Assembly (NCBI GenBank): GCA_946699065.1
Contig: CAMPDV010000004.1
Location: 1 to 64,000 of the forward strand
Reading direction: 5' to 3'
DNA from: Loxodes magnus
Taxonomy: Eukaryota > Ciliophora > Karyorelictea > Loxodida > Loxodidae
Length of the DNA: 64,000 nt
Under the pieces are notes generated by a model. The model was not told where the DNA came from, ran no database searches, and was given only the letters and a program-made list of their open reading frames with translations. The translations under genes were made by a program, and so were the position numbers. The number at the start of each line of letters is the position of its first letter. Within the stretch, counting starts at the first letter, position 1. Positions 1 through 35,242 of this stretch are shown piece after piece.

Positions 1-3000
1 AATTGATCTCATGTCACTTGCTAAAGCTACTGATAGAACGTAATCCCCATGACCCTTCAAAGTTCTCGTACAGCTTCCAGTCTGCACATCCCAAATCTTT
101 ATGGTTTGATCCCAACTTCCTGAGACAATTGATCTCATGTCACTTGCTAAAGCTACTGATAGAACGTAATCCCCATGACCCTTCAAAGTTCTCGTACAGC
201 TTCCAGTCTGCACATCCCAAATCTTTATGGTTTTATCCCAACTTCCTGAGACAATTGATCTCATGTCACTTGCTAAAGCTACTGATAGAACGTAATCCCC
301 ATGACCCTTCAAAGTTCTCGTACAGCTTCCAGTCTGCACATCCCAAATCTTTATGGTATCATCTGAACTTCCTGAGACAATTGATCTCATGTCACTTGCT
401 AAAGCTACTGATAGAACGTAATCCCCATGACCCTTCAAAGTTCTCGTACAGCTTCCAGTCTGCACATCCCAAATCTTTATGGTTTTATCCCAACTTCCTG
501 AGACAATTGATCTCATGTCACTTGTTAAAGCTACTGATACAACGGCATACCCATGATCCTTCAAAGTTCTCGTACAGCTTCCAGTCTGCACATCCCAAAT
601 CTTTATGGTCTGCACATCCCAAATCTTTATGGTTTTATCCCAACTTCCTGAGACAATTGATCTCATGTCACTTGTTAAAGCTACTGATACAACGGCATAC
701 CCATGATCCTTCAAAGTTCTCGTACAGCTTCCAGTCTGCACATCCCAAATCTTTATGGTTTTATCCCAACTTCCTGAGACAATTGATCTCATGTCACTTG
801 TTAAAGCTACTGATCGAACGGAATTCCCATGACCCTTCAAAGTTCTCGTACAGCTTCCAGTCTGCACATCCCAAATCTTTATGGTTTTATCCCTACTTCC
901 TGAGACAATTGATCTCATGTCACTTGCTAAAGCTACTGATAGAACGTAATCCCCATGACCCTTCAAATACAGCTTCCAGTCTGCACATCCCAAATCTTTA
1001 TGGTTTTATCCCAACTTCCTGAGACTGATCTCATGTCACTTGTTAAAGCTACTGATACAACGTAATCCCCATGACCCTTCAAAGTTCTCGTACAGCTTCC
1101 AGTCTGCACATCCCAAATCTTTATGGTTTCATCTGAACTTCCTGAGACAATTGATCTCATGTCACTTGTTAAAGCTACTGATACAACGGCATACCCATGA
1201 CCCTTCAAAGTTCTCGTACAGCTTCCAGTCTGCACATCCCAAATCTTTATGGTTTTATCCCAACTTCCTGAGACAATTGATCTCAAGTCACTTGCTAAAT
1301 CTACTGATAGAACGTAATCCCCATGACCCTTCAAAGTTCTCGTACAGCTTCCAGTCTGCACATCCCAAATCTTTATGGTATCATCTGAACTTCCTGAGAC
1401 AATTGATCTCATGTCACTTGTTAAAGCTACTGATCGAACGGAATTCCCATGACCCTTCAAAGTTCTCGTACAGCTTCCAGTCTGCACATCCCAAATCTTT
1501 ATGGTTTGATCCCTACTTCCTGAGACAATTGATCTCATGTCACTTGCTAAAGCTACTGATAGAACGTAATCCCCATGACCCTTCAAAGTTCTCGTACAGC
1601 TTCCAGTCTGCACATCCCAAATCTTTATGGTATCATCTGAACTTCCTGAGACAATTGATCTCATGTCACTTGTTAAAGCTACTGATCGAACGGAATTCCC
1701 ATGACCCTTCAAAGTTCTCGTACAGCTTCCAGTCTGCACATCCCAAATCTTTATGGTTTTATCCCTACTTCCTGAGACAATTGATCTCATGTCACTTGCT
1801 AAAGCTACTGATAGAACGTAATCCCCATGACCCTTCAAAGTTCTCGTACAGCTTCCAGTCTGCACATCCCAAATCTTTATGGTTTTATCCCAACTTCCTG
1901 AGACAATTGATCTCATGTCACTTGTTAAAGCTACTGATACAACGTAATCCCCATGACCCTTCAAAGTTCTCGTACAGCTTCCAGTCTGCACATCCCAAAT
2001 CTTTATGGTTTCATCTGAACTTCCTGAGACAATTGATCTCATGTCACTTGTTAAAGCTACTGATACAACGGCATACCCATGATCCTTCAAAGTTCTCGTA
2101 CAGCTTCCAGTCTGCACATCCCAAATCTTTATGGTTTTATCCCAACTTCCTGAGACAATTGATCTCATGTCACTTGTTAAAGCTACTGATACAACGTAAT
2201 CCCCATGACCCTTCAAAGTTCTCGTACAGCTTCCAGTCTGCACATCCCAAATCTTTATGGTTTGATCCCTACTTCCTGAGACAATTGATCTCATGTCACT
2301 TGTTAAAGCTACTGATAGAACGGAATTCCCATGACCCTTCAAAGTTCTCGTACAGCTTCCAGTCTGCACATCCCAAATCTTTATGGTATCATCTGAACTT
2401 CCTGAGACAATTGATCTCATGTCACTTGCTAAAGCTACTGATACAACGGAATCCCCATGACCCTTCAAAGTTCTCGTACAGCTTCCAGTCTGCACATCCC
2501 AAATCTTTATGGTTTGATCCCTACTTCCTGAGACAATTGATCTCATGTCACTTGCTAAAGCTACTGATAGAACGTAATCCCCATGACCCTTCAAAGTTCT
2601 CGTACAGCTTCCAGTCTGCACATCCCAAATCTTTATGGTATCATCTGAACTTCCTGAGACAATTGATCTCATGTCACTTGTTAAAGCTACTGATCGAACG
2701 GAATTCCCATGACCCTTCAAAGTTCTCGTACAGCTTCCAGTCTGCACATCCCAAATCTTTATGGTTTTATCCCTACTTCCTGAGACAATTGATCTCATGT
2801 CACTTGCTAAAGCTACTGATAGAACGTAATTCCCATGACCCTTCAAAGTTCTCGTACAGCTTCCAGTCTGCACATCCCAAATCTTTATGGTTTGATCCCA
2901 ACTTCCTGAGACAATTGATCTCATGTCACTTGTTAAAGCTACTGATCGAACGGAATTCCCATGACCCTTCAAAGTTCTCGTACAGCTTCCAGTCTGCACA

Positions 3001-6000
3001 TCCCAAATCTTTATGGTTTTATCCCAACTTCCTGAGACAATTGATCTCATGTCACTTGTTAAAGCTACTGATAGAACGGAATTCCCATGACCCTTCAAAG
3101 TTCTCGTACAGCTTCCAGTCTGCACATCCCAAATCTTTATGGTTTGATCCCTACTTCCTGAGACAATTGATCTCATGTCACTTGTTAAAGCTACTGATAG
3201 AACGGAATTCCCATGACCCTTCAAAGTTCTCGTACAGCTTCCAGTCTGCACATCCCAAATCTTTATGGTATCATCTGAACTTCCTGAGACAATTGATCTC
3301 ATGTCACTTGCTAAAGCTACTGATACAACGGAATCCCCATGACCCTTCAAAGTTCTCGTACAGCTTCCAGTCTGCACATCCCAAATCTTTATGGTTTGAT
3401 CCCTACTTCCTGAGACAATTGATCTCATGTCACTTGCTAAAGCTACTGATAGAACGTAATCCCCATGACCCTTCAAAGTTCTCGTACAGCTTCCAGTCTG
3501 CACATCCCAAATCTTTATGGTTTGATCCCAACTTCCTGAGACAATTGATCTCATGTCACTTGCTAAAGCTACTGATAGAACGTAATCCCCATGACCCTTC
3601 AAAGTTCTCGTACAGCTTCCAGTCTGCACATCCCAAATCTTTATGGTTTGATCCCAACTTCCTGAGACAATTGATCTCATGTCACTTGCTAAAGCTACTG
3701 ATAGAACGTAATCCCCATGACCCTTCAAAGTTCTCGTACAGCTTCCAGTCTGCACATCCCAAATCTTTATGGTATCATCTGAACTTCCTGAGACAATTGA
3801 TCTCATGTCACTTGCTAAAGCTACTGATAGAACGTAATCCCCATGACCCTTCAAAGTTCTCGTACAGCTTCCAGTCTGCACATCCCAAATCTTTATGGTT
3901 TGATCCCTACTTCCTGAGACAATTGATCTCATGTCACTTGTTAAAGCTACTGATACAAAGGCATACCCATGACCCTTCAAAGTTCTCGTACAGCTTCCAG
4001 TCTGCACATCCCAAATCTTTATGGTTTCATCTGAACTTCCTGAGACAATTGATCTCATGTCACTTGTTAAAGCTACTGATCGAACGGAATTCCCATGACC
4101 CTTCAAAGTTCTCGTACAGCTTCCAGTCTGCACATCCCAAATCTTTATGGTTTTATCCCTACTTCCTGAGACAATTGATCTCATGTCACTTGCTAAAGCT
4201 ACTGATAGAACGTAATCCCCATGACCCTTCAAAGTTCTCGTACAGCTTCCAGTCTGCACATCCCAAATCTTTATGGTTTTATCCCAACTTCCTGAGACAA
4301 TTGATCTCATGTCACTTGTTAAAGCTACTGATACAACGTAATCCCCATGACCCTTCAAAGTTCTCGTACAGCTTCCAGTCTGCACATCCCAAATCTTTAT
4401 GGTTTCATCTGAACTTCCTGAGACAATTGATCTCATGTCACTTGTTAAAGCTACTGATACAACGGCATACCCATGACCCTTCAAAGTTCTCGTACAGCTT
4501 CCAGTCTGCACATCCCAAATCTTTATGGTTTTATCCCAACTTCCTGAGACAATTGATCTCAAGTCACTTGCTAAATCTACTGATAGAACGTAATCCCCAT
4601 GACCCTTCAAAGTTCTCGTACAGCTTCCAGTCTGCACATCCCAAATATTTATGGTATCATCTGAACTTCCTGAGACAATTGATCTCATGTCACTTGTTAA
4701 AGCTACTGATCGAACGGAATTCCCATGACCCTTCAAAGTTCTCGTACAGCTTCCAGTCTGCACATCCCAAATCTTTATGGTTTGATCCCTACTTCCTGAG
4801 ACAATTGATCTCATGTCACTTGTTAAAGCTACTGATAGAACGGAATTCCCATGACCCTTCAAAGTTCTCGTACAGCTTCCAGTCTGCACATCCCAAATCT
4901 TTATGGTATCATCTGAACTTCCTGAGACAATTGATCTCATGTCACTTGCTAAAGCTACTGATACAACGGAATCCCCATGACCCTTCAAAGTTCTCGTACA
5001 GCTTCCAGTCTGCACATCCCAAATCTTTATGGTTTTATCCATACTTCCTGAGACAATTGATCTCATGTCACTTGTTAAAGCTACTGATTCAACGGAATTC
5101 CCATGACCCTTCAAAGTTCTCGTACAGCTTCCAGTCTGCACATCCCAAATCTTTATGGTTTCATCCCAACTTCCTGAGACAATTGATCTCATGTCACTTG
5201 TTAAAGCTACTGATAGAACGTAATCCCCATGACCCTTCAAAGTTCTCGTACAGCTTCCAGTCTGCACATCCCAAATCTTTATGGTATCATCTGAACTTCC
5301 TGAGACAATTGATCTCATGTCACTTGCTAAAGCTACTGATAGAACGTAATCCCCATGACCCTTCAAAGTTCTCGTACAGCTTCCAGTCTGCACATCCCAA
5401 ATCTTTATTGTTTGATCCCTACTTCCTGAGACAATTGATCTCATGTCACTTGTTAAAGCTACTGATACAACGGCATACCCATGATCCTTCAAAGTTCTCG
5501 TACAGCTTCCAGTCTGCACATCCCAAATCTTTATGGTTTTATCCCAACTTCCTGAGACAATTGATCTCAAGTCACTTGCTAAAGCTACTGATAGAACGTA
5601 ATCCCCATGACCCTTCAAAGTTCTCGTACAGCTTCCAGTCTGCACATCCCAAATCTTTATGGTTTGATTTGCACTTCCTGAGACAATTGATCTCATGTCA
5701 CTTGCTAAAGCTACTGATTAAACGTAATCCCCATGACCCTTCAAAGTTCTCGTACAGCTTCCAGTCTGCACATCCCAAATCTTTATGGTTTGATCCCTAC
5801 TTCCTGAGACAATTGATCTCATGTCACTTGTTAAAGCTACTGATACAAAGGCATACCCATGACCCTTCAAAGTTCTCGTACAGCTTCCAGTCTGCACATC
5901 CCAAATCTTTATCTTTTGATCCCTACTTCCTGAGACAATTGATCTCATGTCACTTGTTAAAGCTACTGATACAACGGCATACCCATGATCCTTCAAAGTT

Positions 6001-9000
6001 CTCGTACAGCTTCCAGTCTGCACATCCCAAATCTTTATGGTTTGATTTGCACTTCCTGAGACAATTGATCTCATGTCACTTGTTAAAGCTACTGATACAA
6101 AGGCATACCCATGACCCTTCAAAGTTCTCGTACAGCTTCCAGTCTGCACATCCCAAATCTTTATCTTTTGATCCCTACTTCCTGAGACAATTGATCTCAA
6201 GTCACTTGCTAAAGCTACTGATAGAACGTAATCCCCATGACCCTTCAAAGTTCTCGTACAGCTTCCAGTCTGCACATCCCAAATCTTTATGGTTTGATTT
6301 GCACTTCCTGAGACAATTGATCTCATGTCACTTGTTAAAGCTACTGATACAACGGCATACCCATGACCCTTCAAAGTTCTCGTACAGCTTCCAGTCTGCA
6401 CATCCCAAATCTTTATGGTTTTATCCCAACTTCCTGAGACAATTGATCTCAAGTCACTTGCTAAATCTACTGATAGAACGTAATCCCCATGACCCTTCAA
6501 AGTTCTCGTACAGCTTCCAGTCTGCACATCCCAAATATTTATGGTATCATCTGAACTTCCTGAGACAATTGATCTCATGTCACTTGTTAAAGCTACTGAT
6601 CGAACGGAATTCCCATGACCCTTCAAAGTTCTCGTACAGCTTCCAGTCTGCACATCCCAAATCTTTATGGTTTGATCCCTACTTCCTGAGACAATTGATC
6701 TCATGTCACTTGTTAAAGCTACTGATAGAACGGAATTCCCATGACCCTTCAAAGTTCTCGTACAGCTTCCAGTCTGCACATCCCAAATCTTTATGGTATC
6801 ATCTGAACTTCCTGAGACAATTGATCTCATGTCACTTGCTAAAGCTACTGATACAACGGAATCCCCATGACCCTTCAAAGTTCTCGTACAGCTTCCAGTC
6901 TGCACATCCCAAATCTTTATGGTTTTATCCATACTTCCTGAGACAATTGATCTCATGTCACTTGTTAAAGCTACTGATTCAACGGAATTCCCATGACCCT
7001 TCAAAGTTCTCGTACAGCTTCCAGTCTGCACATCCCAAATCTTTATGGTTTCATCCCAACTTCCTGAGACAATTGATCTCATGTCACTTGTTAAAGCTAC
7101 TGATAGAACGTAATCCCCATGACCCTTCAAAGTTCTCGTACAGCTTCCAGTCTGCACATCCCAAATCTTTATGGTATCATCTGAACTTCCTGAGACAATT
7201 GATCTCATGTCACTTGCTAAAGCTACTGATAGAACGTAATCCCCATGACCCTTCAAAGTTCTCGTACAGCTTCCAGTCTGCACATCCCAAATCTTTATTG
7301 TTTGATCCCTACTTCCTGAGACAATTGATCTCATGTCACTTGTTAAAGCTACTGATACAACGGCATACCCATGATCCTTCAAAGTTCTCGTACAGCTTCC
7401 AGTCTGCACATCCCAAATCTTTATGGTTTTATCCCAACTTCCTGAGACAATTGATCTCAAGTCACTTGCTAAAGCTACTGATAGAACGTAATCCCCATGA
7501 CCCTTCAAAGTTCTCGTACAGCTTCCAGTCTGCACATCCCAAATCTTTATGGTTTGATTTGCACTTCCTGAGACAATTGATCTCATGTCACTTGCTAAAG
7601 CTACTGATTAAACGTAATCCCCATGACCCTTCAAAGTTCTCGTACAGCTTCCAGTCTGCACATCCCAAATCTTTATGGTTTGATCCCTACTTCCTGAGAC
7701 AATTGATCTCATGTCACTTGTTAAAGCTACTGATACAAAGGCATACCCATGACCCTTCAAAGTTCTCGTACAGCTTCCAGTCTGCACATCCCAAATCTTT
7801 ATCTTTTGATCCCTACTTCCTGAGACAATTGATCTCATGTCACTTGTTAAAGCTACTGATACAACGGCATACCCATGATCCTTCAAAGTTCTCGTACAGC
7901 TTCCAGTCTGCACATCCCAAATCTTTATGGTTTTATCCCAACTTCCTGAGACAATTGATCTCAAGTCACTTGCTAAAGCTACTGATAGAACGTAATCCCC
8001 ATGACCCTTCAAAGTTCTCGTACAGCTTCCAGTCTGCACATCCCAAATCTTTATGGTTTGATCCCAACTTCCTGAGACAATTGATCTCATGTCACTTGTT
8101 AAAGCTACTGATACAAAGGCATACCCATGACCCTTCAAAGTTCTCGTACAGCTTTCAGTCTGCACATCCCAAATCTTTATGGTTTTATCCCAACTTCCTG
8201 AGACAATTGATCTCATGTCACTTGTTAAAGCTACTGATACAACGTAATTCCCATGACCCTTCAAAGTTCTCGTACAGCTTCCAGTCTGCACATCCCAAAT
8301 CTTTATGGTTTGATCCCTACTTCCTGAGACAATTGATCTCATGTCACTTGTTAAAGCTACTGATAGAACGGAATTCCCATGACCCTTCAAAGTTCTCGTA
8401 CAGCTTCCAGTCTGCACATCCCAAATCTTTATGGTATCATCTGAACTTCCTGAGACAATTGATCTCATGTCACTTGCTAAAGCTACTGATACAACGGAAT
8501 CCCCATGACCCTTCAAAGTTCTCGTACAGCTTCCAGTCTGCACATCCCAAATCTTTATGGTTTGATCCCTACTTCCTGAGACAATTGATCTCATGTCACT
8601 TGCTAAAGCTACTGATAGAACGTAATCCCCATGACCCTTCAAAGTTCTCGTACAGCTTCCAGTCTGCACATCCCAAATCTTTATGGTTTGATCCCAACTT
8701 CCTGAGACAATTGATCTCATGTCACTTGCTAAAGCTACTGATAGAACGTAATCCCCATGACCCTTCAAAGTTCTCGTACAGCTTCCAGTCTGCACATCCC
8801 AAATCTTTATGGTATCATCTGAACTTCCTGAGACAATTGATCTCATGTCACTTGCTAAAGCTACTGATAGAACGTAATCCCCATGACCCTTCAAAGTTCT
8901 CGTACAGCTTCCAGTCTGCACATCCCAAATCTTTATGGTTTTATCCCAACTTCCTGAGACAATTGATCTCATGTCACTTGTTAAAGCTACTGATACAAAG

Positions 9001-12000
9001 GCATACCCATGACCCTTCAAAGTTCTCGTACAGCTTTCAGTCTGCACATCCCAAATCTTTATGGTTTTATCCCAACTTCCTGAGACAATTGATCTCATGT
9101 CACTTGTTAAAGCTACTGATACAACGTAATCCCCATGATCCTTCAAAGTTCTCGTACAGCTTCCAGTCTGCACATCCCAAATCTTTATGGTTTCATCTGA
9201 ACTTCCTGAGACAATTGATCTCATGTCACTTGTTAAAGCTACTGATCGAACGGAATTCCCATGACCCTTCAAAGTTCTCGTACAGCTTCCAGTCTGCACA
9301 TCCCAAATCTTTATGGTTTTATCCCTACTTCCTGAGACAATTGATCTCATGTCACTTGCTAAAGCTACTGATAGAACGTAATCCCCATGACCCTTCAAAG
9401 TTCTCGTACAGCTTCCAGTCTGCACATCCCAAATCTTTATGGTTTTATCCCAACTTCCTGAGACAATTGATCTCATGTCACTTGTTAAAGCTACTGATAC
9501 AACGTAATCCCCATGACCCTTCAAAGTTCTCGTACAGCTTCCAGTCTGCACATCCCAAATCTTTATGGTTTCATCTGAACTTCCTGAGACAATTGATCTC
9601 ATGTCACTTGTTAAAGCTACTGATACAACGGCATACCCATGACCCTTCAAAGTTCTCGTACAGCTTCCAGTCTGCACATCCCAAATCTTTATGGTTTTAT
9701 CCCAACTTCCTGAGACAATTGATCTCAAGTCACTTGCTAAATCTACTGATAGAACGTAATCCCCATGACCCTTCAAAGTTCTCGTACAGCTTCCAGTCTG
9801 CACATCCCAAATATTTATGGTATCATCTGAACTTCCTGAGACAATTGATCTCATGTCACTTGTTAAAGCTACTGATCGAACGGAATTCCCATGACCCTTC
9901 AAAGTTCTCGTACAGCTTCCAGTCTGCACATCCCAAATCTTTATGGTTTGATCCCTACTTCCTGAGACAATTGATCTCATGTCACTTGTTAAAGCTACTG
10001 ATAGAACGGAATTCCCATGACCCTTCAAAGTTCTCGTACAGCTTCCAGTCTGCACATCCCAAATCTTTATGGTATCATCTGAACTTCCTGAGACAATTGA
10101 TCTCATGTCACTTGCTAAAGCTACTGATACAACGGAATCCCCATGACCCTTCAAAGTTCTCGTACAGCTTCCAGTCTGCACATCCCAAATCTTTATCTTT
10201 TGATCCCTACTTCCTGAGACAATTGATCTCATGTCACTTGTTAAAGCTACTGATACAACGGCATACCCATGATCCTTCAAAGTTCTCGTACAGCTTCCAG
10301 TCTGCACATCCCAAATCTTTATGGTTTTATCCCAACTTCCTGAGACAATTGATCTCAAGTCACTTGCTAAAGCTACTGATAGAACGTAATCCCCATGACC
10401 CTTCAAAGTTCTCGTACAGCTTCCAGTCTGCACATCCCAAATCTTTATGGTTTGATCCCAACTTCCTGAGACAATTGATCTCATGTCACTTGCTAAAGCT
10501 ACTGATTAAACGGAATCCCCATGACCCTTCAAAGTTCTCGTACAGCTTCCAGTCTGCACATCCCAAATCTTTATGGTTTTATCCCAACTTCCTGAGACAA
10601 TTGATCTCATGTCACTTGTTAAAGCTACTGATACAACGGAATTCCCATGACCCTTCAAAGTTCTCGTACAGCTTCCAGTCTGCACATCCCAAATCTTTAT
10701 GGTTTGATCCCTACTTCCTGAGACAATTGATCTCATGTCACTTGTTAAAGCTACTGATAGAACGGAATTCCCATGACCCTTCAAAGTTCTCGTACAGCTT
10801 CCAGTCTGCACATCCCAAATCTTTATGGTATCATCTGAACTTCCTGAGACAATTGATCTCATGTCACTTGCTAAAGCTACTGATACAACGGAATCCCCAT
10901 GACCCTTCAAAGTTCTCGTACAGCTTCCAGTCTGCACATCCCAAATCTTTATGGTTTGATCCCTACTTCCTGAGACAATTGATCTCATGTCACTTGCTAA
11001 AGCTACTGATAGAACGTAATCCCCATGACCCTTCAAAGTTCTCGTACAGCTTCCAGTCTGCACATCCCAAATCTTTATGGTTTGATCCCAACTTCCTGAG
11101 ACAATTGATCTCATGTCACTTGCTAAAGCTACTGATAGAACGTAATCCCCATGACCCTTCAAAGTTCTCGTACAGCTTCCAGTCTGCACATCCCAAATCT
11201 TTATGGTTTGATCCCAACTTCCTGAGACAATTGATCTCATGTCACTTGCTAAAGCTACTGATAGAACGTAATCCCCATGACCCTTCAAAGTTCTCGTACA
11301 GCTTCCAGTCTGCACATCCCAAATCTTTATGGTATCATCTGAACTTCCTGAGACAATTGATCTCATGTCACTTGCTAAAGCTACTGATAGAACGTAATCC
11401 CCATGACCCTTCAAAGTTCTCGTACAGCTTCCAGTCTGCACATCCCAAATCTTTATGGTTTTATCCCAACTTCCTGAGACAATTGATCTCATGTCACTTG
11501 TTAAAGCTACTGATACAAAGGCATACCCATGACCCTTCAAAGTTCTCGTACAGCTTTCAGTCTGCACATCCCAAATCTTTATGGTTTTATCCCAACTTCC
11601 TGAGACAATTGATCTCATGTCACTTGTTAAAGCTACTGATACAACGTAATCCCCATGATCCTTCAAAGTTCTCGTACAGCTTCCAGTCTGCACATCCCAA
11701 ATCTTTATGGTTTCATCTGAACTTCCTGAGACAATTGATCTCATGTCACTTGTTAAAGCTACTGATCGAACGGAATTCCCATGACCCTTCAAAGTTCTCG
11801 TACAGCTTCCAGTCTGCACATCCCAAATCTTTATGGTTTTATCCCTACTTCCTGAGACAATTGATCTCATGTCACTTGCTAAAGCTACTGATAGAACGTA
11901 ATCCCCATGACCCTTCAAAGTTCTCGTACAGCTTCCAGTCTGCACATCCCAAATCTTTATGGTTTTATCCCAACTTCCTGAGACAATTGATCTCATGTCA

Positions 12001-21000: not shown

Positions 21001-24000
21001 CAGCTTCCAGTCTGCACATCCCAAATCTTTATGGTATCATCTGAACTTCCTGAGACAATTGATCTCATGTCACTTGCTAAAGCTACTGATAGAACGTAAT
21101 CCCCATGACCCTTCAAAGTTCTCGTACAGCTTCCAGTCTGCACATCCCAAATCTTTATTGTTTGATCCCTACTTCCTGAGACAATTGATCTCATGTCACT
21201 TGTTAAAGCTACTGATACAACGGCATACCCATGATCCTTCAAAGTTCTCGTACAGCTTCCAGTCTGCACATCCCAAATCTTTATGGTTTTATCCCAACTT
21301 CCTGAGACAATTGATCTCATGTCACTTGCTAAAGCTACTGATTAAACGTAATCCCCATGACCCTTCAAAGTTCTCGTACAGCTTCCAGTCTGCACATCCC
21401 AAATCTTTATGGTTTGATCCCTACTTCCTGAGACAATTGATCTCATGTCACTTGTTAAAGCTACTGATACAAAGGCATACCCATGACCCTTCAAAGTTCT
21501 CGTACAGCTTCCAGTCTGCACATCCCAAATCTTTATCTTTTGATCCCTACTTCCTGAGACAATTGATCTCATGTCACTTGTTAAAGCTACTGATACAACG
21601 GCATACCCATGATCCTTCAAAGTTCTCGTACAGCTTCCAGTCTGCACATCCCAAATCTTTATGGTTTTATCCCAACTTCCTGAGACAATTGATCTCAAGT
21701 CACTTGCTAAAGCTACTGATAGAACGTAATCCCCATGACCCTTCAAAGTTCTCGTACAGCTTCCAGTCTGCACATCCCAAATCTTTATGGTTTGATCCCA
21801 ACTTCCTGAGACAATTGATCTCATGTCACTTGCTAAAGCTACTGATTAAACGGAATCCCCATGACCCTTCAAAGTTCTCGTACAGCTTCCAGTCTGCACA
21901 TCCCAAATCTTTATGGTTTGATCCCTACTTCCTGAGACAATTGATCTCATGTCACTTGTTAAAGCTACTGATAGAACGGAATTCCCATGACCCTTCAAAG
22001 TTCTCGTACAGCTTCCAGTCTGCACATCCCAAATCTTTATGGTTTGATCCCTACTTCCTGAGACAATTGATCTCATGTCACTTGTTAAAGCTACTGATAG
22101 AACGGAATTCCCATGACCCTTCAAAGTTCTCGTACAGCTTCCAGTCTGCACATCCCAAATCTTTATGGTATCATCTGAACTTCCTGAGACAATTGATCTC
22201 ATGTCACTTGCTAAAGCTACTGATACAACGGAATCCCCATGACCCTTCAAAGTTCTCGTACAGCTTCCAGTCTGCACATCCCAAATCTTTATGGTTTGAT
22301 CCCTACTTCCTGAGACAATTGATCTCATGTCACTTGCTAAAGCTACTGATAGAACGTAATCCCCATGACCCTTCAAAGTTCTCGTACAGCTTCCAGTCTG
22401 CACATCCCAAATCTTTATGGTTTGATCCCAACTTCCTGAGACAATTGATCTCATGTCACTTGCTAAAGCTACTGATAGAACGTAATCCCCATGACCCTTC
22501 AAAGTTCTCGTACAGCTTCCAGTCTGCACATCCCAAATCTTTATGGTTTGATCCCAACTTCCTGAGACAATTGATCTCATGTCACTTGCTAAAGCTACTG
22601 ATAGAACGTAATCCCCATGACCCTTCAAAGTTCTCGTACAGCTTCCAGTCTGCACATCCCAAATCTTTATGGTATCATCTGAACTTCCTGAGACAATTGA
22701 TCTCATGTCACTTGCTAAAGCTACTGATAGAACGTAATCCCCATGACCCTTCAAAGTTCTCGTACAGCTTCCAGTCTGCACATCCCAAATCTTTATGGTT
22801 TTATCCCAACTTCCTGAGACAATTGATCTCATGTCACTTGTTAAAGCTACTGATACAAAGGCATACCCATGACCCTTCAAAGTTCTCGTACAGCTTCCAG
22901 TCTGCACATCCCAAATCTTTATGGTTTTATCCCAACTTCCTGAGACAATTGATCTCATGTCACTTGTTAAAGCTACTGATACAACGGCATACCCATGATC
23001 CTTCAAAGTTCTCGTACAGCTTCCAGTCTGCACATCCCAAATCTTTATGGTTTCATCTGAACTTCCTGAGACAATTGATCTCATGTCACTTGTTAAAGCT
23101 ACTGATCGAACGGAATTCCCATGACCCTTCAAAGTTCTCGTACAGCTTCCAGTCTGCACATCCCAAATCTTTATGGTTTTATCCCTACTTCCTGAGACAA
23201 TTGATCTCATGTCACTTGCTAAAGCTACTGATAGAACGTAATCCCCATGACCCTTCAAAGTTCTCGTACAGCTTCCAGTCTGCACATCCCAAATCTTTAT
23301 GGTTTTATCCCAACTTCCTGAGACAATTGATCTCATGTCACTTGTTAAAGCTACTGATACAACGTAATCCCCATGACCCTTCAAAGTTCTCGTACAGCTT
23401 CCAGTCTGCACATCCCAAATCTTTATGGTTTCATCTGAACTTCCTGAGACAATTGATCTCATGTCACTTGTTAAAGCTACTGATACAACGGCATACCCAT
23501 GACCCTTCAAAGTTCTCGTACAGCTTCCAGTCTGCACATCCCAAATCTTTATGGTTTTATCCCAACTTCCTGAGACAATTGATCTCAAGTCACTTGCTAA
23601 ATCTACTGATAGAACGTAATCCCCATGACCCTTCAAAGTTCTCGTACAGCTTCCAGTCTGCACATCCCAAATATTTATGGTATCATCTGAACTTCCTGAG
23701 ACAATTGATCTCATGTCACTTGTTAAAGCTACTGATCGAACGGAATTCCCATGACCCTTCAAAGTTCTCGTACAGCTTCCAGTCTGCACATCCCAAATCT
23801 TTATGGTTTGATCCCTACTTCCTGAGACAATTGATCTCATGTCACTTGTTAAAGCTACTGATAGAACGGAATTCCCATGACCCTTCAAAGTTCTCGTACA
23901 GCTTCCAGTCTGCACATCCCAAATCTTTATGGTATCATCTGAACTTCCTGAGACAATTGATCTCATGTCACTTGCTAAAGCTACTGATACAACGGAATCC

Positions 24001-27000
24001 CCATGACCCTTCAAAGTTCTCGTACAGCTTCCAGTCTGCACATCCCAAATCTTTATGGTTTTATCCATACTTCCTGAGACAATTGATCTCATGTCACTTG
24101 TTAAAGCTACTGATTCAACGGAATTCCCATGACCCTTCAAAGTTCTCGTACAGCTTCCAGTCTGCACATCCCAAATCTTTATGGTTTCATCCCAACTTCC
24201 TGAGACAATTGATCTCATGTCACTTGTTAAAGCTACTGATAGAACGTAATCCCCATGACCCTTCAAAGTTCTCGTACAGCTTCCAGTCTGCACATCCCAA
24301 ATCTTTATGGTATCATCTGAACTTCCTGAGACAATTGATCTCATGTCACTTGCTAAAGCTACTGATAGAACGTAATCCCCATGACCCTTCAAAGTTCTCG
24401 TACAGCTTCCAGTCTGCACATCCCAAATCTTTATTGTTTGATCCCTACTTCCTGAGACAATTGATCTCATGTCACTTGTTAAAGCTACTGATACAACGGC
24501 ATACCCATGATCCTTCAAAGTTCTCGTACAGCTTCCAGTCTGCACATCCCAAATCTTTATGGTTTTATCCCAACTTCCTGAGACAATTGATCTCAAGTCA
24601 CTTGCTAAAGCTACTGATAGAACGTAATCCCCATGACCCTTCAAAGTTCTCGTACAGCTTCCAGTCTGCACATCCCAAATCTTTATGGTTTGATTTGCAC
24701 TTCCTGAGACAATTGATCTCATGTCACTTGCTAAAGCTACTGATTAAACGTAATCCCCATGACCCTTCAAAGTTCTCGTACAGCTTCCAGTCTGCACATC
24801 CCAAATCTTTATGGTTTGATCCCTACTTCCTGAGACAATTGATCTCATGTCACTTGTTAAAGCTACTGATACAAAGGCATACCCATGACCCTTCAAAGTT
24901 CTCGTACAGCTTCCAGTCTGCACATCCCAAATCTTTATCTTTTGATCCCTACTTCCTGAGACAATTGATCTCATGTCACTTGTTAAAGCTACTGATACAA
25001 CGGCATACCCATGATCCTTCAAAGTTCTCGTACAGCTTCCAGTCTGCACATCCCAAATCTTTATGGTTTTATCCCAACTTCCTGAGACAATTGATCTCAA
25101 GTCACTTGCTAAAGCTACTGATAGAACGTAATCCCCATGACCCTTCAAAGTTCTCGTACAGCTTCCAGTCTGCACATCCCAAATCTTTATGGTTTGATCC
25201 CAACTTCCTGAGACAATTGATCTCATGTCACTTGCTAAAGCTACTGATACAACGGAATCCCCATGACCCTTCAAAGTTCTCGTACAGCTTCCAGTCTGCA
25301 CATCCCAAATCTTTATGGTTTTATCCATACTTCCTGAGACAATTGATCTCATGTCACTTGTTAAAGCTACTGATTCAACGGAATTCCCATGACCCTTCAA
25401 AGTTCTCGTACAGCTTCCAGTCTGCACATCCCAAATCTTTATGGTTTCATCCCAACTTCCTGAGACAATTGATCTCATGTCACTTGTTAAAGCTACTGAT
25501 AGAACGTATCCCCATGACCCTTCAAATGACCCTTCAAAGTTCTCGTACAGCTTCCAGTCTGCACATCCCAAATCTTTATGGTATCATCTGAACTTCCTGA
25601 GACAATTGATCTCATGTCACTTGCTAAAGCTACTGATAGAACGTAATCCCCATGACCCTTCAAAGTTCTCGTACAGCTTCCAGTCTGCACATCCCAAATC
25701 TTTATGGTATCATCTGAACTTCCTGAGACAATTGATCTCATGTCACTTGTTAAAGCTACTGATCGAACGGAATTCCCATGACCCTTCAAAGTTCTCGTAC
25801 AGCTTCCAGTCTGCACATCCCAAATCTTTATGGTATCATCTGAACTTCCTGAGACAATTGATCTCATGTCACTTGCTAAAGCTACTGATACAACGGAATC
25901 CCCATGACCCTTCAAAGTTCTCGTACAGCTTCCAGTCTGCACATCCCAAATCTTTATGGTTTTATCCCAACTTCCTGAGACAATTGATCTCATGTCACTT
26001 GTTAAAGCTACTGATCGAACGGAATTCCCATGACCCTTCAAAGTTCTCGTACAGCTTCCAGTCTGCACATCCCAAATCTTTATGGTTTCATCCCAACTTC
26101 CTGAGACAATTGATCTCATGTCACTTGTTAAAGCTACTGATAGAACGTAATCCCCATGACCCTTCAAAGTTCTCGTACAGCTTCCAGTCTGCACATCCCA
26201 AATCTTTATGGTTTCATCCCAACTTCCTGAGACAATTGATCTCATGTCACTTGTTAAAGCTACTGATCGAACGGAATTCTCATGACACTTCAAAGTTCTC
26301 GTACAGCTTCCAGTCTGCACATCCCAAATCTTTATGGTTTCATCCCAACTTCCTGAGACAATTGATCTCATGTCACTTGTTAAAGCTACTGATAGAACGT
26401 AATCCCCATGACCCTTCAAAGTTCTCGTACAGCTTCCAGTCTGCACATCCCAAATCTTTATGGTTTGATTTGCACTTCCTGAGACAATTGATCTCATGTC
26501 ACTTGCTAAAGCTACTGATTAAACGGAATCCCCATGACCCTTCAAAGTTCTCGTACAGCTTCCAGTCTGCACATCCCAAATCTTTATGGTTTGATCCCTA
26601 CTTCCTGAGACAATTGATCTCATGTCACTTGTTAAAGCTACTGATAGAACGGAATTCCCATGACCCTTCAAAGTTCTCGTACAGCTTCCAGTCTGCACAT
26701 CCCAAATCTTTATGGTTTGATTTGCACTTCCTGAGACAATTGATCTCATGTCACTTGCTAAAGCTACTGATTAAACGGAATCCCCATGACCCTTCAAAGT
26801 TCTCGTACAGCTTCCAGTCTGCACATCCCAAATCTTTATGGTTTGATCCCTACTTCCTGAGACAATTGATCTCATGTCACTTGTTAAAGCTACTGATCGA
26901 ACGGAATCCCCATGACCCTTCAAAGTTCTCGTACAGCTTCCAGTCTGCACATCCCAAATCTTTATGGTTTTATCCATACTTCCTGAGACAATTGATCTCA

Positions 27001-30000
27001 TGTCACTTGCTAAAGCTACTGATACAACGGAATCCCCATGACCCTTCAAAGTTCTCGTACAGCTTCCAGTCTGCACATCCCAAATCTTTATGGTTTTATC
27101 CCAACTTCCTGAGACAATTGATCTCATGTCACTTGTTAAAGCTACTGATCGAACGGAATTCCCATGACCCTTCAAAGTTCTCGTACAGCTTCCAGTCTGC
27201 ACATCCCAAATCTTTATGGTATCATCTGAACTTCCTGAGACAATTGATCTCATGTCACTTGCTAAAGCTACTGATACAACGGAATCCCCATGACCCTTCA
27301 AAGTTCTCGTACAGCTTCCAGTCTGCACATCCCAAATCTTTATGGTTTTATCCCAACTTCCTGAGACAATTGATCTCATGTCACTTGTTAAAGCTACTGA
27401 TAGAACGGAATTCCCATGACCCTTCAAAGTTCTCGTACAGCTTCCAGTCTGCACATCCCAAATCTTTATTGTTTGATCCCTACTTCCTGAGACAATTGAT
27501 CTCATGTCACTTGTTAAAGCTACTGATCGAACGGAATCCCCATGACCCTTCAAAGTTCTCGTACAGCTTCCAGTCTGCACATCCCAAATCTTTATGGTTT
27601 TATCCCAACTTCCTGAGACAATTGATCTCATGTCACTTGTTAAAGCTACTGATCGAACGGAATTCCCATGACCCTTCAAAGTTCTCGTACAGCTTCCAGT
27701 CTGCACATCCCAAATCTTTATGGTTTTATCCCAACTTCCTGAGACAATTGATCTCATGTCACTTGTTAAAGCTACTGATACAACGGCATACCCATGACCC
27801 TTCAAAGTTCTCGTACAGCTTCCAGTCTGCACATCCCAAATCTTTATGGTATCATCTGAACTTCCTGAGACAATTGATCTCATGTCACTTGTTAAAGCTA
27901 CTGATACAACGTAATCCCCATGACCCTTCAAAGTTCTCGTACAGCTTCCAGTCTGCACATCCCAAATCTTTATGGTTTCATCTGAACTTCCTGAGACAAT
28001 TGATCTCATGTCACTTGCTAAAGCTACTGATACAAAGGCATACCCATGACCCTTCAAAGTTCTCGTACAGCTTCCAGTCTGCACATCCCAAATCTTTATG
28101 GTTTTATCCCAACTTCCTGAGACAATTGATCTCATGTCACTTGTTAAAGCTACTGATCGAACGTAATCCCCATGACCCTTCAAAGTTCTCGTACAGCTTC
28201 CAGTCTGCACATCCCAAATATTTATGGTATCATCTGAACTTCCTGAGACAATTGATCTCATGTCACTTGTTAAAGCTACTGATCGAACGGAATTCCCATG
28301 ACCCTTCAAAGTTCTCGTACAGCTTCCAGTCTGCACATCCCAAATCTTTATGGTATCATCTGAACTTCCTGAGACAATTGATCTCATGTCACTTGTTAAA
28401 GCTACTGATCGAACGGAATTCCCATGACCCTTCAAAGTTCTCGTACAGCTTCCAGTCTGCACATCCCAAATCTTTATGGTTTCATCTGAACTTCCTGAGA
28501 CAATTGATCTCATGTCACTTGTTAAAGCTACTGATCGAACGGAATTCCCATGACCCTTCAAAGTTCTCGTACAGCTTCCAGTCTGCACATCCCAAATCTT
28601 TATGGTATCATCTGAACTTCCTGAGACAATTGATCTCATGTCACTTGCTAAAGCTACTGATACAACGGAATCCCCATGACCCTTCAAAGTTCTCGTACAG
28701 CTTCCAGTCTGCACATCCCAAATCTTTATGGTTTTATCCATACTTCCTGAGACAATTGATCTCATGTCACTTGTTAAAGCTACTGATTCAACGGAATTCC
28801 CATGACCCTTCAAAGTTCTCGTACAGCTTCCAGTCTGCACATCCCAAATCTTTATGGTTTCATCCCAACTTCCTGAGACAATTGATCTCATGTCACTTGT
28901 TAAAGCTACTGATAGAACGTAATCCCCATGACCCTTCAAAGTTCTCGTACAGCTTCCAGTCTGCACATCCCAAATCTTTATGGTATCATCTGAACTTCCT
29001 GAGACAATTGATCTCATGTCACTTGCTAAAGCTACTGATAGAACGTAATCCCCATGACCCTTCAAAGTTCTCGTACAGCTTCCAGTCTGCACATCCCAAA
29101 TCTTTATGGTATCATCTGAACTTCCTGAGACAATTGATCTCATGTCACTTGTTAAAGCTACTGATCGAACGGAATTCCCATGACCCTTCAAAGTTCTCGT
29201 ACAGCTTCCAGTCTGCACATCCCAAATCTTTATGGTATCATCTGAACTTCCTGAGACAATTGATCTCATGTCACTTGCTAAAGCTACTGATACAACGGAA
29301 TCCCCATGACCCTTCAAAGTTCTCGTACAGCTTCCAGTCTGCACATCCCAAATCTTTATGGTTTTATCCCAACTTCCTGAGACAATTGATCTCATGTCAC
29401 TTGTTAAAGCTACTGATCGAACGGAATTCCCATGACCCTTCAAAGTTCTCGTACAGCTTCCAGTCTGCACATCCCAAATCTTTATGGTTTCATCCCAACT
29501 TCCTGAGACAATTGATCTCATGTCACTTGTTAAAGCTACTGATAGAACGTAATCCCCATGACCCTTCAAAGTTCTCGTACAGCTTCCAGTCTGCACATCC
29601 CAAATCTTTATGGTTTCATCCCAACTTCCTGAGACAATTGATCTCATGTCACTTGTTAAAGCTACTGATCGAACGGAATTCTCATGACACTTCAAAGTTC
29701 TCGTACAGCTTCCAGTCTGCACATCCCAAATCTTTATGGTTTCATCTGAACTTCCTGAGACAATTGATCTCATGTCACTTGTTAAAGCTACTGATCGAAC
29801 GGAATTCCCATGACCCTTCAAAGTTCTTGTACAGCTTCCAGTCTGCACATCCCAAATCTTTATGGTTTGATCCCAACTTCCTGAGACAATTGATCTCATG
29901 TCACTTGTTAAAGCTACTGATACAACGGAATCCCCATGACCCTTCAAAGTTCTCGTACAGCTTCCAGTCTGCACATCCCAAATCTTTATGGTTTTATCCC

Positions 30001-33000
30001 AACTTCCTGAGACAATTGATCTCATGTCACTTGTTAAAGCTACTGATCGAACGGAATTCCCATGACCCTTCAAAGTTCTCGTACAGCTTCCAGTCTGCAC
30101 ATCCCAAATATTTATGGTATCATCTGAACTTCCTGAGACAATTGATCTCATGTCACTTGTTAAAGCTACTGATCGAACGGAATTCCCATGACCCTTCAAA
30201 GTTCTCGTACAGCTTCCAGTCTGCACATCCCAAATCTTTATGGTTTTATCCCAACTTCCTGAGACAATTGATCTCATGTCACTTGTTAAAGCTACTGATC
30301 GAACGGAATTCCCATGACCCTTCAAAGTTCTCGTACAGCTTCCAGTCTGCACATCCCAAATCTTTATGGTATCATCTGAACTTCCTGAGACAATTGATCT
30401 CATGTCACTTGCTAAAGCTACTGATAGAACGTAATCCCCATGACCCTTCAAAGTTCTCGTACAGCTTTCAGTCTGCACATCCCAAATCTTTATGGTTTCA
30501 TCTGAACTTCCTGAGACAATTGATCTCATGTCACTTGTTAAAGCTACTGATACAACGGAATCCCCATGACCCTTCAAAGTTCTCGTACAGCTTCCAGTCT
30601 GCACATCCCAAATCTTTATGGTTTTATCCCAACTTCCTGAGACAATTGATCTCATGTCACTTGTTAAAGCTACTGATCGAACGGAATCCCCATGACCCTT
30701 CAAAGTTCTCGTACAGCTTCCAGTCTGCACATCCCAAATCTTTATGGTTTTATCCCTACTTCCTGAGACAATTGATCTCATGTCACTTGCTAAAGCTACT
30801 GATAGAACGTAATCCCCATGACCCTTCAAAGTTCTCGTACAGCTTCCAGTCTGCACATCCCAAATCTTTATGGTATCATCTGAACTTCCTGAGACAATTG
30901 ATCTCATGTCACTTGCTAAAGCTACTGATACAACGTAATCCACATGACCCTTCAAAGTTCTCGTACAGCTTCCAGTCTGCACATCCCAAATCTTTATGGT
31001 ATCATCTGAACTTCCTGAGACAATTGATCTCATTTCACTTGCTAAAGCTACTGATACAACGGAATCCCCATGACCCTTCAAAGTTCTCGTACAGCTTTCA
31101 GTCTGCACATCCCAAATCTTTATGGTTTGATCCCAACTTCCTGAGACAATTGATCTCATGTCACTTGTTAAAGCTACTGATCGAACGGAATTCTCATGAC
31201 ACTTCAAAGTTCTCGTACAGCTTCCAGTCTGCACATCCCAAATCTTTATGGTTTGATTTGCACTTCCTGAGACAATTGATCTCATGTCACTTGCTAAAGC
31301 TACTGATCGAACGGAATTCCCATGACCCTTCAAAGTTCTCGTACAGCTTCCAGTCTGCACATCCCAAATCTTTATGGTTTGATTTGCACTTCCTGAGACA
31401 ATTGATCTCATGTCACTTGCTAAAGCTACTGATTAAACGGAATCCCCATGACCCTTCAAAGTTCTCGTACAGCTTCCAGTCTGCACATCCCAAATCTTTA
31501 TGGTTTGATCCCTACTTCCTGAGACAATTGATCTCATGTCACTTGTTAAAGCTACTGATCGAACGGAATCCCCATGACCCTTCAAAGTTCTCGTACAGCT
31601 TCCAGTCTGCACATCCCAAATCTTTATGGTTTTATCCCTACTTCCTGAGACAATTGATCTCATGTCACTTGTTAAAGCTACTGATACAACGGCATACCCA
31701 TGATCCTTCAAAGTTCTCGTACAGCTTCCAGTCTGCACATCCCAAATCTTTATGGTATCATCTGAACTTCCTGAGACAATTGATCTCATGTCACTTGCTA
31801 AAGCTACTGATCGAACGGAATTCTCATGACACTTCAAAGTTCTCGTACAGCTTCCAGTCTGCACATCCCAAATCTTTATGGTTTCATCTGAACTTCCTGA
31901 GACAATTGATCTCATGTCACTTGTTAAAGCTACTGATCGAACGGAATCCCCATGACCCTTCAAAGTTCTCGTACAGCTTCCAGTCTGCACATCCCAAATC
32001 TTTATGGTATCATCTGAACTTCCTGAGACAATTGATCTCATGTCACTTGCTAAAGCTACTGATACAACGGAATCCCCATGACCCTTCAAAGTTCTCGTAC
32101 AGCTTCCAGTCTGCACATCCCAAATCTTTATGGTATCATCTGAACTTCCTGAGACAATTGATCTCATGTCACTTGTTAAAGCTACTGATCGAACGGAATT
32201 CCCATGACCCTTCAAAGTTCTCGTACAGCTTCCAGTCTGCACATCCCAAATCTTTATGGTATCATCTGAACTTCCTGAGACAATTGATCTCATGTCACTT
32301 GCTAAAGCTACTGATACAACGGAATCCCCATGACCCTTCAAAGTTCTCGTACAGCTTCCAGTCTGCACATCCCAAATCTTTATGGTTTTATCCCAACTTC
32401 CTGAGACAATTGATCTCATGTCACTTGTTAAAGCTACTGATCGAACGGAATTCCCATGACCCTTCAAAGTTCTCGTACAGCTTCCAGTCTGCACATCCCA
32501 AATCTTTATGGTTTCATCCCAACTTCCTGAGACAATTGATCTCATGTCACTTGTTAAAGCTACTGATAGAACGTAATCCCCATGACCCTTCAAAGTTCTC
32601 GTACAGCTTCCAGTCTGCACATCCCAAATCTTTATGGTTTGATCCCAACTTCCTGAGACAATTGATCTCATGTCACTTGTTAAAGCTACTGATCGAACGG
32701 AATTCTCATGACACTTCAAAGTTCTCGTACAGCTTCCAGTCTGCACATCCCAAATCTTTATGGTTTCATCTGAACTTCCTGAGACAATTGATCTCATGTC
32801 ACTTGTTAAAGCTACTGATCGAACGGAATTCCCATGACCCTTCAAAGTTCTCGTACAGCTTTCAGTCTGCACATCCCAAATCTTTATGGTTTCATCCCTA
32901 CTTCCTGAGACAATTGATCTCATGTCACTTGTTAAAGCTACTGATACAACGGAATCCCCATGACCCTTCAAAGTTCTCGTACAGCTTCCAGTCTGCACAT

Positions 33001-33959
33001 CCCAAATCTTTATGGTTTCATCTGAACTTCCTGAGACAATTGATCTCATGTCACTTGTTAAAGCTACTGATACAAAGGCATACCCATGATCCTTCAAAGT
33101 TCTCGTACAGCTTTCAGTCTGCACATCCCAAATCTTTATGGTTTTATCCCAACTTCCTGAGACAATTGATCTCATGTCACTTGTTAAAGCTACTGATACA
33201 ACGGAATCCCCATGACCCTTCAAAGTTCTCGTACAGCTTCCAGTCTGCACATCCCAAATCTTTATGGTTTTATCCCAACTTCCTGAGACAATTGATCTCA
33301 TGTCACTTGTTAAAGCTACTGATCGAACGGAATTCCCATGACCCTTCAAAGTTCTCGTACAGCTTTCAGTCTGCACATCCCAAATCTTTATGGTTTGATC
33401 CCAACTTCCTGAGACAATTGATCTCATGTCACTTGTTAAAGCTACTGATCGAACGGAATTCTCATGACACTTCAAAGTTCTCGTACAGCTTCCAGTCTGC
33501 ACATCCCAAATCTTTATGGTTTCATCCCAACTTCCTGAGACAATTGATCTCATGTCACTTGTTAAAGCTACTGATCGAACGGAATCCCCATGACCCTTCA
33601 AAGTTCTCGTACAGCTTCCAGTCTGCACATCCCAAATCTTTATGGTATCATCTGAACTTCCTGAGACAATTGATCTCATGTCACTTGCTAAAGCTACTGA
33701 TAGAACGGAATTCCCATGACCCTTCAAAGTTCTCGTACAGCTTCCAGTCTGCACATCCCAAATCTTTATGGTATCATCTGAACTTCCTGAGACAATTGAT
33801 CTCATGTCACTTGCTAAAGCTACTGATACAACGGAATCCCCATGACCCTTCAAAGTTCTCGTACAGCTTCCAGTCTGCACATCCCAAATCTTTATGGTTT
33901 TATCCATACTTCCTGAGACAATTGATCTCATGTCACTTGTTAAAGCTACTGATTCAACG
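1..33959. repeat. 126-bp coding tandem array (WD40 satellite)
   Basis: The period is exactly 126 bp, about 269 copies by arithmetic after allowing for four small indels. The array starts mid-unit at base 1 and so continues to the left; homology to the unit ends at 33959. Most differences between units sit at a few columns: the two or three residues after GHG, the residue before SVAL, A/T before SD, M/L before RSIV, and the triplet after SGS. The segment from 25.5 to 34 kb carries more variant types, such as CHENSV and QTESC, than the rest, which is built of repeated blocks. Confidence 0.97.
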
Positions 33960-34124
33960 CGAAACTAATGAACTTATAAAAAAAACATTTTTTGTTCCAA
34001 TCACAAATTATTTAGTCCGATCGACACCATATATACAAAGCTAACCCCGATTTTTCTTTAGCGGTATTAAAGTTTAACTAACGGTTTTTTTATTTTCCGA
34101 CTTATCAACTATTTTTTTTTTCAT
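1..34124 (-). CDS. Giant WD40-repeat protein, about 269 near-identical blades, 3' end beyond window
   Basis: Read with TAA as Gln, the minus strand encodes a tandem series of 42-residue WD40 blades, each with the GH and WD dipeptides and the core SGS-x-D-x-TIKIWD. WD40 blades form beta-propellers used for protein binding; the partner here is unknown. I chose the ATG at 34124-34122: 46 codons, a 22-nt intron (33965-33986), then directly into blades. No effector domain (NACHT, kinase, TIR) is visible. Apparent breaks at 5718, 7608, 10506 and 13 other places are TAA codons at one site of the blade (GHGDYV-Q-SVAL or the DSV form). Two true frame disruptions occur, near 25508 (net +11 bp) and 967 (-7 bp); the WD40 frame resumes after each, so they may be real mutations or assembly errors. 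The plus strand is also open but is antisense. The WD40 call is secure; the exact start is moderately so. Confidence 0.85.
10506..24743. repeat. Higher-order repeat blocks of 126-bp units (23, 27, 18, 18, 27 units)
   Basis: In-frame TAA codons mark block boundaries. From 10506 a 23-unit block (2898 bp) runs to 13403. Then a 4-unit block that is identical in translation at 13404, 16806, 19074 and 21342 opens blocks of 27 units (13404-16805, 3402 bp), 18 units (16806-19073), 18 units (19074-21341, 2268 bp) and 27 units (21342-24743). The 958-residue segments starting at 10506, 13908 and 21846 translate almost identically. This is the nested pattern expected from unequal exchange of multi-unit segments. 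Confidence 0.88.
33965..33986 (-). other. 22-nt intron in the giant WD40 gene
   Basis: On the minus strand this is a GT...TAG segment. Removing it joins the lysine-rich first exon to the first blade in frame (GTKN then FRVESVAL). Without removal the first exon is out of frame with the blades. Confidence 0.6.
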
Positions 34125-34777: not shown

Positions 34778-35242
34778 ATGGAGGAAATTTTCAAGAAGGG
34801 CTTTTATAATACCTAGAAAAAGATGGAGAAATAAGAATCCAAACTTCGTTTTCCCATGATATCTTACATATCTTTTACTTCTTCATTTGCCACATAGGAG
34901 TAACTCTAAATAACACCTCTCAAACAACTCTAGAAATACCAATATGCAATTACATTGACTTAGAAACTTTCCAAAAAGCAAAAATTTTGCAACTTTCAGG
35001 TGTAGAATATGACATTTAGCCTAAACATAGACCTCATAAATTTCAATTAAGAATAGATCTTAGGAATGACAAATATGGATATGGCTAAGCTTGTCGAATC
35101 ATTAATTGGATAAAATCAAGATCTGGAAAGGCAGATTGATGAATTAGTCTAAGCCCAAAAATGTTATGTTGAAGATGAAGAAATCCATGACTCATAACTC
35201 AAAAAATAAGAAATATCCGATAATGAACATCAGAATCGATGA
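34778..35242 (+). CDS. Hypothetical 154-residue protein with C-terminal coiled coil
   Basis: With TAA and TAG as Gln this is one frame from ATG to TGA with no internal TGA. The last 60 residues are rich in Glu, Gln and Lys (DLERQIDELVQAQK) and look helical and coiled. I do not recognise a family. Another frame over 34790-35080 is also open and protein-like, so either frame or a spliced mix could be right. It is transcribed away from the giant WD40 gene. Confidence 0.4.

Follow-up and report, generated by a model that had tools for sequence, protein, structure and literature searches.

A WD40 tandem array in Loxodes magnus, possibly a coding-derived satellite that grew from a recognition-type gene

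The first 34 kb of a 64,000-nucleotide stretch of the karyorelict ciliate Loxodes magnus (contig CAMPDV010000004.1, positions 1 to 64,000; hereafter the window) are a tandem array of a 126-bp unit that encodes a WD40 blade. We favor, with a probability of about 0.52, the reading that this array is a satellite of coding origin that grew out of a WD40 gene resembling HET-E or the WRAP propellers. The ancestral unit would have been a single blade, or a small group of blades, from a WD40 protein with high internal identity, of the HET-D/HET-E or WRAP kind, and selection on the protein would have diversified its variable residues at an interaction face. Very long arrays in two families, DNA on the scale of satellites, could then have arisen by unequal exchange and block duplication, and the arrays would now be drifting. 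The array itself is real and unusual, and its diversity points to a recognition-type WD40 ancestor. This extends the hypervariable, high-identity type of WD40 repeat, seen in fungal non-self recognition and in bacteria, to a ciliate, at a scale unreported in the literature searched.

The repeat is highly regular. Tandem Repeats Finder gives a period of 126 bp with 264.6 copies and 94% matches over positions 608-33,953, and a cut at one fixed anchor yields 269 intervals, most of which (265) measure exactly 126 bp and the others 137, 123, 119 and 24 bp. Since the 24-bp interval is an insertion, there are 268 units and not 269. A sequence-only reading of this DNA had described an exact 126-bp period over 34 kb, which holds for 265 of the 268 units and fails in the three of other length. 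The encoded unit, IKIWDVQTGSCTRTLKGHGDSVLSVALTSDMRSIVSGSWDET, is a 42-residue WD40 blade, and the 265 exact units comprise 70 distinct DNA sequences and 68 distinct protein sequences. A 300-residue piece (33,101-34,000) matches Pfam family PF00400 with an E value of 1.4e-74 and has PDB entry 2ymu, which we take to be the Nostoc protein Npun_R6612, as its best relative of known structure (E 4e-113). The 5' edge of the array, placed by eye, lies near 33,959; at the left the array is open and runs off position 1, which is the start of the contig. Its GC content is 41.9%, against 27.9% over 34,000-64,000. Higher-order blocks are present as 28 pairs of runs with at least five identical successive units, the longest run having 19 units, and identical pairs of units are most frequent at a lag of 27 units when lags of 1-30 are compared. 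Hence, the array shares with the HET-E/HNWD proteins a 42-residue WD40 repeat of high internal identity, and shares with satellites a multi-kilobase tandem arrangement with higher-order repeats in which the frame is not kept.

The features of the array and of its 5' edge are as follows.
1..33959, minus strand: WD40 tandem array with a 126-bp unit, 268 units plus one partial unit at each end.
25443..33895, minus strand: frame segment 1, 67 units that share the frame of the ATG ahead of them, the final one being broken; 39 distinct units among the first 66.
25440..25577, minus strand: frame break 1, a 137-bp unit with a 12-bp in-frame duplication and a 1-bp deletion.
883..25442, minus strand: frame segment 2, 195 units, the last one broken, with higher-order repeats and identical runs of up to 19 units.
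880..999, minus strand: frame break 2, a 119-bp unit with a 7-bp deletion.
103..882, minus strand: frame segment 3, with 6 units and, near 604-754, an insertion of 24 bp that keeps the frame.
33986..33988, minus strand: in-frame ATG, 10 codons ahead of the first blade residue (by eye and from the list of open reading frames).
34001..34003, minus strand: in-frame TGA upstream of the ATG (by eye and from the frame analysis).
34031..34366, no strand assigned: dispersed repeat that stops about 70-95 bp short of the array's 5' edge.
33960..38000, no strand assigned: AT-rich flank with 22.7% GC and no Pfam family over cut-off in three minus-strand frames.

The reading frame is one reason why we regard the array, as assembled, as something other than one gene. 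By interval, the WD40 frame lies in three phases, with 67 intervals at 33,895-25,443, 195 at 25,442-883 and 7 at 882-103 (the 24-bp insertion counted), and the corresponding stop-free runs under table 6 span 2,841, 8,206 and 344 codons. The intact open reading frame that HET-E/HNWD genes keep across their repeats is thus replaced, as assembled, by three frame segments. A 3-bp deletion and the 24-bp insertion close to break 2 both preserve the frame. The sequence-only reading had proposed a WD40 frame kept over nearly the whole length and one gene of 269 blades or more; what we find are 268 units in a frame split into about 67, 195 and 6 units. These frame shifts break the run, so the array looks less like one giant gene and more like repeat DNA that derives from a gene, and we infer that today's arrays do not yield a single protein. 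Other parts of that reading fared better. A start codon at the 5' end is there (the ATG at 33,988-33,986), and the guess of translation table 27 agrees with the code that the genome paper gives for Loxodes magnus (PMC11441545). The proposed intron at the 5' end was not recognized by eye in the sequence. TAA must be read as Gln in 16 of the 265 exact units, always at codon 23. Because table 27 has no unconditional stop codon, an open frame alone is weak proof of coding in this organism.

The array has sisters elsewhere in the genome, which comprises 705,730,643 bases in 7,843 contigs, the window being positions 1-64,000 of contig C4. A 20-base core occurs in 1,746 exact copies, 261 of them inside the window, and never in a reversed control. 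A protein search gave 166 matches, with the best 108 of 43,762 first-look candidates scored, and among the matches listed arrays are found on nine contigs (C4, C18, C2883, C3737, C4016, C4455, C5226, C6338 and C7635). We sampled 880 units from ten array pieces on these contigs, taking C4 whole, the others in part and C5226 as two pieces by strand, and leaving out five intervals longer than 240 bp. Exactly 126 bp were found in 828 units, and part of the 52 others keep the frame. In some sister arrays frameshifts are frequent, many more than in the window. The state of codon 36 separates two families, with TCA in C4, C4016, C3737 and C4455 and mostly TCG or TCT in C18, C6338, C7635, C2883 and C5226. 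It is plausible that there are two loci, one per family, each split over several contigs. On the 28-kb contig C5226 (e.g., at 5,900-8,400), WD40 arrays with many frameshifts stand in opposite orientations; either the inversion is real or the contig is chimeric.

The diversity of the units is concentrated in a few codons. Among the 828 pooled units, amino-acid entropy is highest at codons 23, 39, 21, 41 and 20, in this order. The same five codons rank on top in all seven samples of at least 45 units, and four of them do so in the three smallest samples (C5226a, C5226b and C4455, with 24, 13 and 29 units). With an offset between the two numberings that we set from the G-H motif, these codons correspond to positions 14, 30, 12, 32 and 11 of HET-D/HET-E. 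The sites with a high ratio of nonsynonymous to synonymous substitution rates (dN/dS) in HET-D/HET-E that we used for comparison are positions 10, 11, 12, 14, 30, 32 and 39 (PMC12222747). All five codons are thus among them, with a chance, calculated by hand, of 2.5e-5 for five of five to lie inside seven of 42 positions; positions 10 and 39 show low entropy here. In the work of Paoletti et al., codons 7, 9, 25 and 27 of their own numbering lie atop the modelled propeller (PMC1805685). Overlap with the HET sites is common among relatives, with a median of 5 of the 7 sites when the seven most variable columns are taken in the 158 of 240 fetched proteins that have a 42-residue register. It is therefore shared by WD40 arrays of high identity at large and not specific to fungi.

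The variation also follows codon structure. Mean nucleotide diversity at codon positions 1, 2 and 3 is 0.547, 0.332 and 0.174 in the five codons versus 0.017, 0.012 and 0.021 in the other 37. The third-position diversity of the five stems chiefly from codons 39 and 41; codon 20 is GAT, AAT or TAT in 828 of 828 units, and codon 23 ends in A in 804. Within the window, distinct units differ on average by 5.96 nonsynonymous and 0.59 synonymous changes, and the ratio of nonsynonymous to synonymous polymorphism (pN/pS) is 3.04 in the WD40 frame versus 0.44-1.77 in the other five frames. A per-allele test on the window alone (27 nonsynonymous, 5 synonymous) gives an excess that is not significant (p 0.21). 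We take this codon-structured diversity, as read from the DNA, to be a mark of past selection on the protein, and the hypervariability would be older than the expansion or partly inherited through it. Local hypermutation in place of selection was considered, given that frameshifting indels recur at codons 19-23 and 39, where units differ. We do not favor it because the third positions of codons 20, 21 and 23 are nearly fixed; it could still account for the indels, whose recurrence may be explained as well by mis-repair between differing units. The sequence-only reading had suggested three roles, a hypervariable recognition surface, a very long scaffold and an amplification tolerated because it is in frame. 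The first of these survives as history: the five top codons are published HET sites and three of them have nearly fixed third positions. The proposed amplification of a coding blade fits best, without the strict frame keeping that went with it.

Selection on the rest of the unit is less apparent. In the 37 other codons, 14 of 59 single-base variants are synonymous, where the mutation spectrum predicts a fraction of 0.199, and no purifying selection was detected (dN/dS, ω, about 0.8, p 0.42). Neither was it detected when variants seen fewer than three times were omitted (9 of 35 synonymous, ω 0.66, p 0.28). On C4 alone, these codons have 13 nonsynonymous and 2 synonymous variants. Moderate constraint on the 37 codons is compatible with the data. 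A single-sequence structure model of 14 blades is all beta with a mean predicted local distance difference test score of 52.5, which is weak, and four other models score 25.8-35.8.

The satellite reading is thus favored by the frame breaks of the window, the 52 off-length units among 880, the abrupt edges of the arrays, the differing phases of the 5' edges, the nearby dispersed repeat, the lack of detected purifying selection in the other 37 codons, the absence of a partner domain from the scanned flanks and the block duplications; the arrays were probably built by exchange and duplication. Several observations weigh against it. Frame segment 2 sits inside a run of 8,206 codons free of TGA (25,583-965). 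Frame break 1 depends on one missing base, which could be a consensus error, and is therefore regarded as uncertain. No frameshift occurs among the 45 units sampled from C18 or the 76 sampled from C2883, and TGA at codon 23 is found in none of the 264 C4 units, where TAA appears instead. Even if a giant protein is functional, any one of its hundreds of units could be dispensed with, so weak constraint per unit does not settle the matter. Finally, among the codon states that were seen at least twice and belong to a single family, 16 fall in the five hypervariable codons and 32 in the remaining 37, and such clustering at hypervariable codons would fit continuing selection. This excess of private states could reflect continuing diversification or the sorting of older variants.

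The strongest rival explanation is that the array represents, wholly or in part, one or several expressed genes whose products are giant multi-propeller proteins bearing a hypervariable face, some array segments being translated. Such proteins could be HET-E-type sensors, acting in self/non-self or prey recognition. We consider this unlikely, since the frame is broken in the window and in the sister arrays, the four flanks that we scanned have no effector or NTPase domain, no common start or end was found and the other codons show no detectable constraint. On the same grounds, together with the nearby dispersed repeat, the single giant gene of the sequence-only reading is not supported as assembled. 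Still, several findings suit a giant protein: the ATG close to the first blade, the roughly 67 and 195 in-frame blades without TGA, a pN/pS that is highest in the WD40 frame and the agreement of the top five codons with published diversifying positions. So does the use of TGA, which is frequent solely at codon 23 and would mean Trp there in the karyorelict code, where TAA and TAG stand for Gln and TGA for Trp or stop. It occurs there in 109 of 828 units and in all nine other array pieces, with only two TGA at any other codon; under table 27 TGA at codon 23 would read as Trp and TAA as Gln, and the pattern would be equally expected if the arrays were untranslated. A further form, in which the arrays are translated, at least in segments of tens to hundreds of blades, and provide a HET-E-like combinatorial recognition face without the core of a NOD-like receptor (NLR), with diversification ongoing in each array, seems doubtful to us. 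If the array is translated, its roughly 195 in-frame blades would far surpass the 47 that were the most in one survey (PMC9218822).

Very unlikely, in our view, is that the arrays silently store blade variants with which gene conversion supplies an expressed WD40 gene elsewhere. The many haplotypes on an almost constant backbone would suit a reservoir, the five codons occurring in 200 distinct combinations in 828 units (10 of them common to both families). Against it, all rows among the matches listed lie on the nine array contigs, although a small gene elsewhere could exist, with 108 of 43,762 candidates scored. Moreover, the matches to NACHT, the domain that accompanies such repeats in fungal NLRs, are weak and off the array contigs. 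Genome searches gave 31 matches to PF05729, the best with 37.8 bits, and two to PF24883, with 34.1 and 32.8 bits, none on an array contig. Both families also match in the 14 control genomes, PF05729 in 11 of them and PF24883 in 9, with the cut-off exceeded in 3 and 5 genomes, respectively, and we therefore rate these matches as weak. A blade-profile search found no related blade at E 10 in eight NACHT loci of about 3.4 kb each or in the window beyond 34,000. Two loci, C104:483,712-484,215 and C3:365,223-365,726, encode a weak NACHT-like NTPase that also matches NPHP3_N (PF24883); they are unlinked to the arrays. The Pfam scan of ten window pieces and the four flanks linked neither NACHT nor another partner to the arrays.

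It is just as improbable that copy number and order are largely an artefact of assembly, a shorter real array having been expanded or chimerized: contig C4 ends within the array, exact runs reach 19 units and the C5226 arrays lie in both orientations, but one short array cannot have given rise to the 70 distinct units of the window, to variants private to each array and to two families that differ in the state of codon 36. As the genome paper describes it, the macronuclear assembly (706 Mbp, table 27) was made from PacBio circular consensus sequencing reads, which also speaks against an artefact, even though the same paper suspects misassembly of tandem repeats (PMC11441545). It assigns 231 Mbp of this assembly to tandem repeats (PMC11441545). 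The satellite reading that we prefer bears on whether this heavy load of Loxodes has coding origins, and the array is a clean setting in which to ask whether five codons go on diversifying at the protein level once a coding repeat has undergone satellite-like expansion.

Known systems offer parallels at a smaller scale. The HNWD proteins of Podospora anserina (HET-D, HET-E and HET-R, which are NACHT-WD40 NLRs) have the same WD40 unit of 126 bp and 42 residues, a near-identical backbone, five of seven variable positions in common (11, 12, 14, 30 and 32) and unit reshuffling. They differ in that their active alleles have 10-12 units, against 268 in the window, and in that here no NACHT or HET domain was found, the frame is broken and positions 10 and 39 hardly vary. 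WRAP and other cyanobacterial WD40 propellers that were amplified recently (such as Npun_R6612 of Nostoc) resemble the array in their near-identical blades with little or no synonymous change; they sit within ordinary genes, whereas the Loxodes array has a broken frame and greatly exceeds them in length. WRAP of Nostoc is reported to show no synonymous substitutions, and frame-disrupted propellers exist (PMC9218822), so both the amplification and the breakage of the array have small-scale precedents. The largest run in that survey of repetitive propellers, 47 blades, belongs to a NACHT protein of Penicillium camemberti (PMC9218822). This predicted NACHT ATPase gene likewise has an over-long run of near-identical WD40 blades, compared with about 195 blades in one frame and 268 units in the Loxodes array. 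With satellite and higher-order-repeat DNA the array shares its long tandem structure, higher-order blocks, differing phases at the 5' edges and variants private to each array; it differs in that its unit is a recognizable blade, its diversity follows codon structure and two 3' edges share phase and homologous flanks.

Two protein searches for relatives, each with 8,000 candidates scored, revealed no ciliate among the named rows of the best 120 of 7,946 and the best 120 of 7,871 matches, many rows being nameless. The consensus blade shares at best 27 of 42 residues with a relative (158 of the 240 fetched proteins were usable). Full-text searches, with subscription papers and supplements outside their scope, brought up no published report of such an array, and the term WD40 is absent from the main text of the L. 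magnus genome paper (PMC11441545).

On C4 the array begins mid-unit, with a 10-codon leader and its ATG ahead. The dispersed repeat beside this edge has at least 24 matches on 22 other contigs, at 69-74% identity (best 36 of 196 candidates scored), and these matches stop at query position 649-670 of 801. The 5' edges were seen on C4 and C18 only; their unit phases differ, and BLAST found no match between the two 5' flanks outside the units. A T-rich likeness of these flanks, spotted by eye and suggestive of a shared N-terminus, failed in alignment. An exact search for the 3'-edge pattern of one phase found two copies in the genome, one on C2883 and one on C3737, where the flanks are T-rich and 89% alike over 1,614 aligned columns. 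A shared C-terminus was nevertheless rejected: these flanks are homologous, yet the frame and the first in-frame TGA differ, as judged by eye.

We scanned the flanks with Pfam in three sense-strand frames, reading through TGA. On the 5' side the scan covered about 4 kb for C4 and 4.2 kb for C18, and on the 3' side 4.9 kb for C2883 and 2.1 kb for C3737. No family, including NACHT, exceeded its cut-off in the approximately 4 kb before the C4 and C18 edges, in line with the sequence-only reading, which had seen no effector domain at the N-terminus. A UPF0058 match in one 5'-flank frame (E 0.0091) was below the family cut-off. No HET or other effector domain was found in three frames of the four flanks, distant exons not being searched. 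The only family over cut-off in the four flanks is reverse transcriptase PF00078, about 1.6 kb beyond the 3' edges (E 2.9e-11 after C2883 and 8.2e-16 after C3737). The reverse transcriptase element adjoining these edges lies at C2883:37,001-44,000 (about 4,000-6,400 within) and C3737:17,400-19,700; on C2883 it is bounded by inverted repeats of about 240 bp (84%). An inverted relative with 73-75% identity lies at 54,487-55,661 of the window. The far end of C3737 (positions 1-700) is taken up by a different tandem repeat, AT-rich and with a period of roughly 90 bp as judged by eye, and no telomere was recognized by eye at the far end of C2883, C3737 itself beginning in this other satellite. Rfam gave one sub-threshold match (E 2.1) at two flank loci, and tRNA and Rfam scans of the window were empty.

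Beyond the array, the window encodes the following genes, identified by Pfam.
44,928-48,233: V-ATPase 116-kDa subunit.
42,501-43,403: ankyrin gene.
49,730-50,857: cyclic-nucleotide-binding gene.
51,922-52,731: RING-type gene, below cut-off.
58,509-59,213: protein kinase fragment.
60,127-61,161: adaptor medium subunit.

At 61,408-63,831 of the window lies an open frame of 807 codons, 104 of which read as Gln under table 6; by eye, it looks coiled-coil-like.

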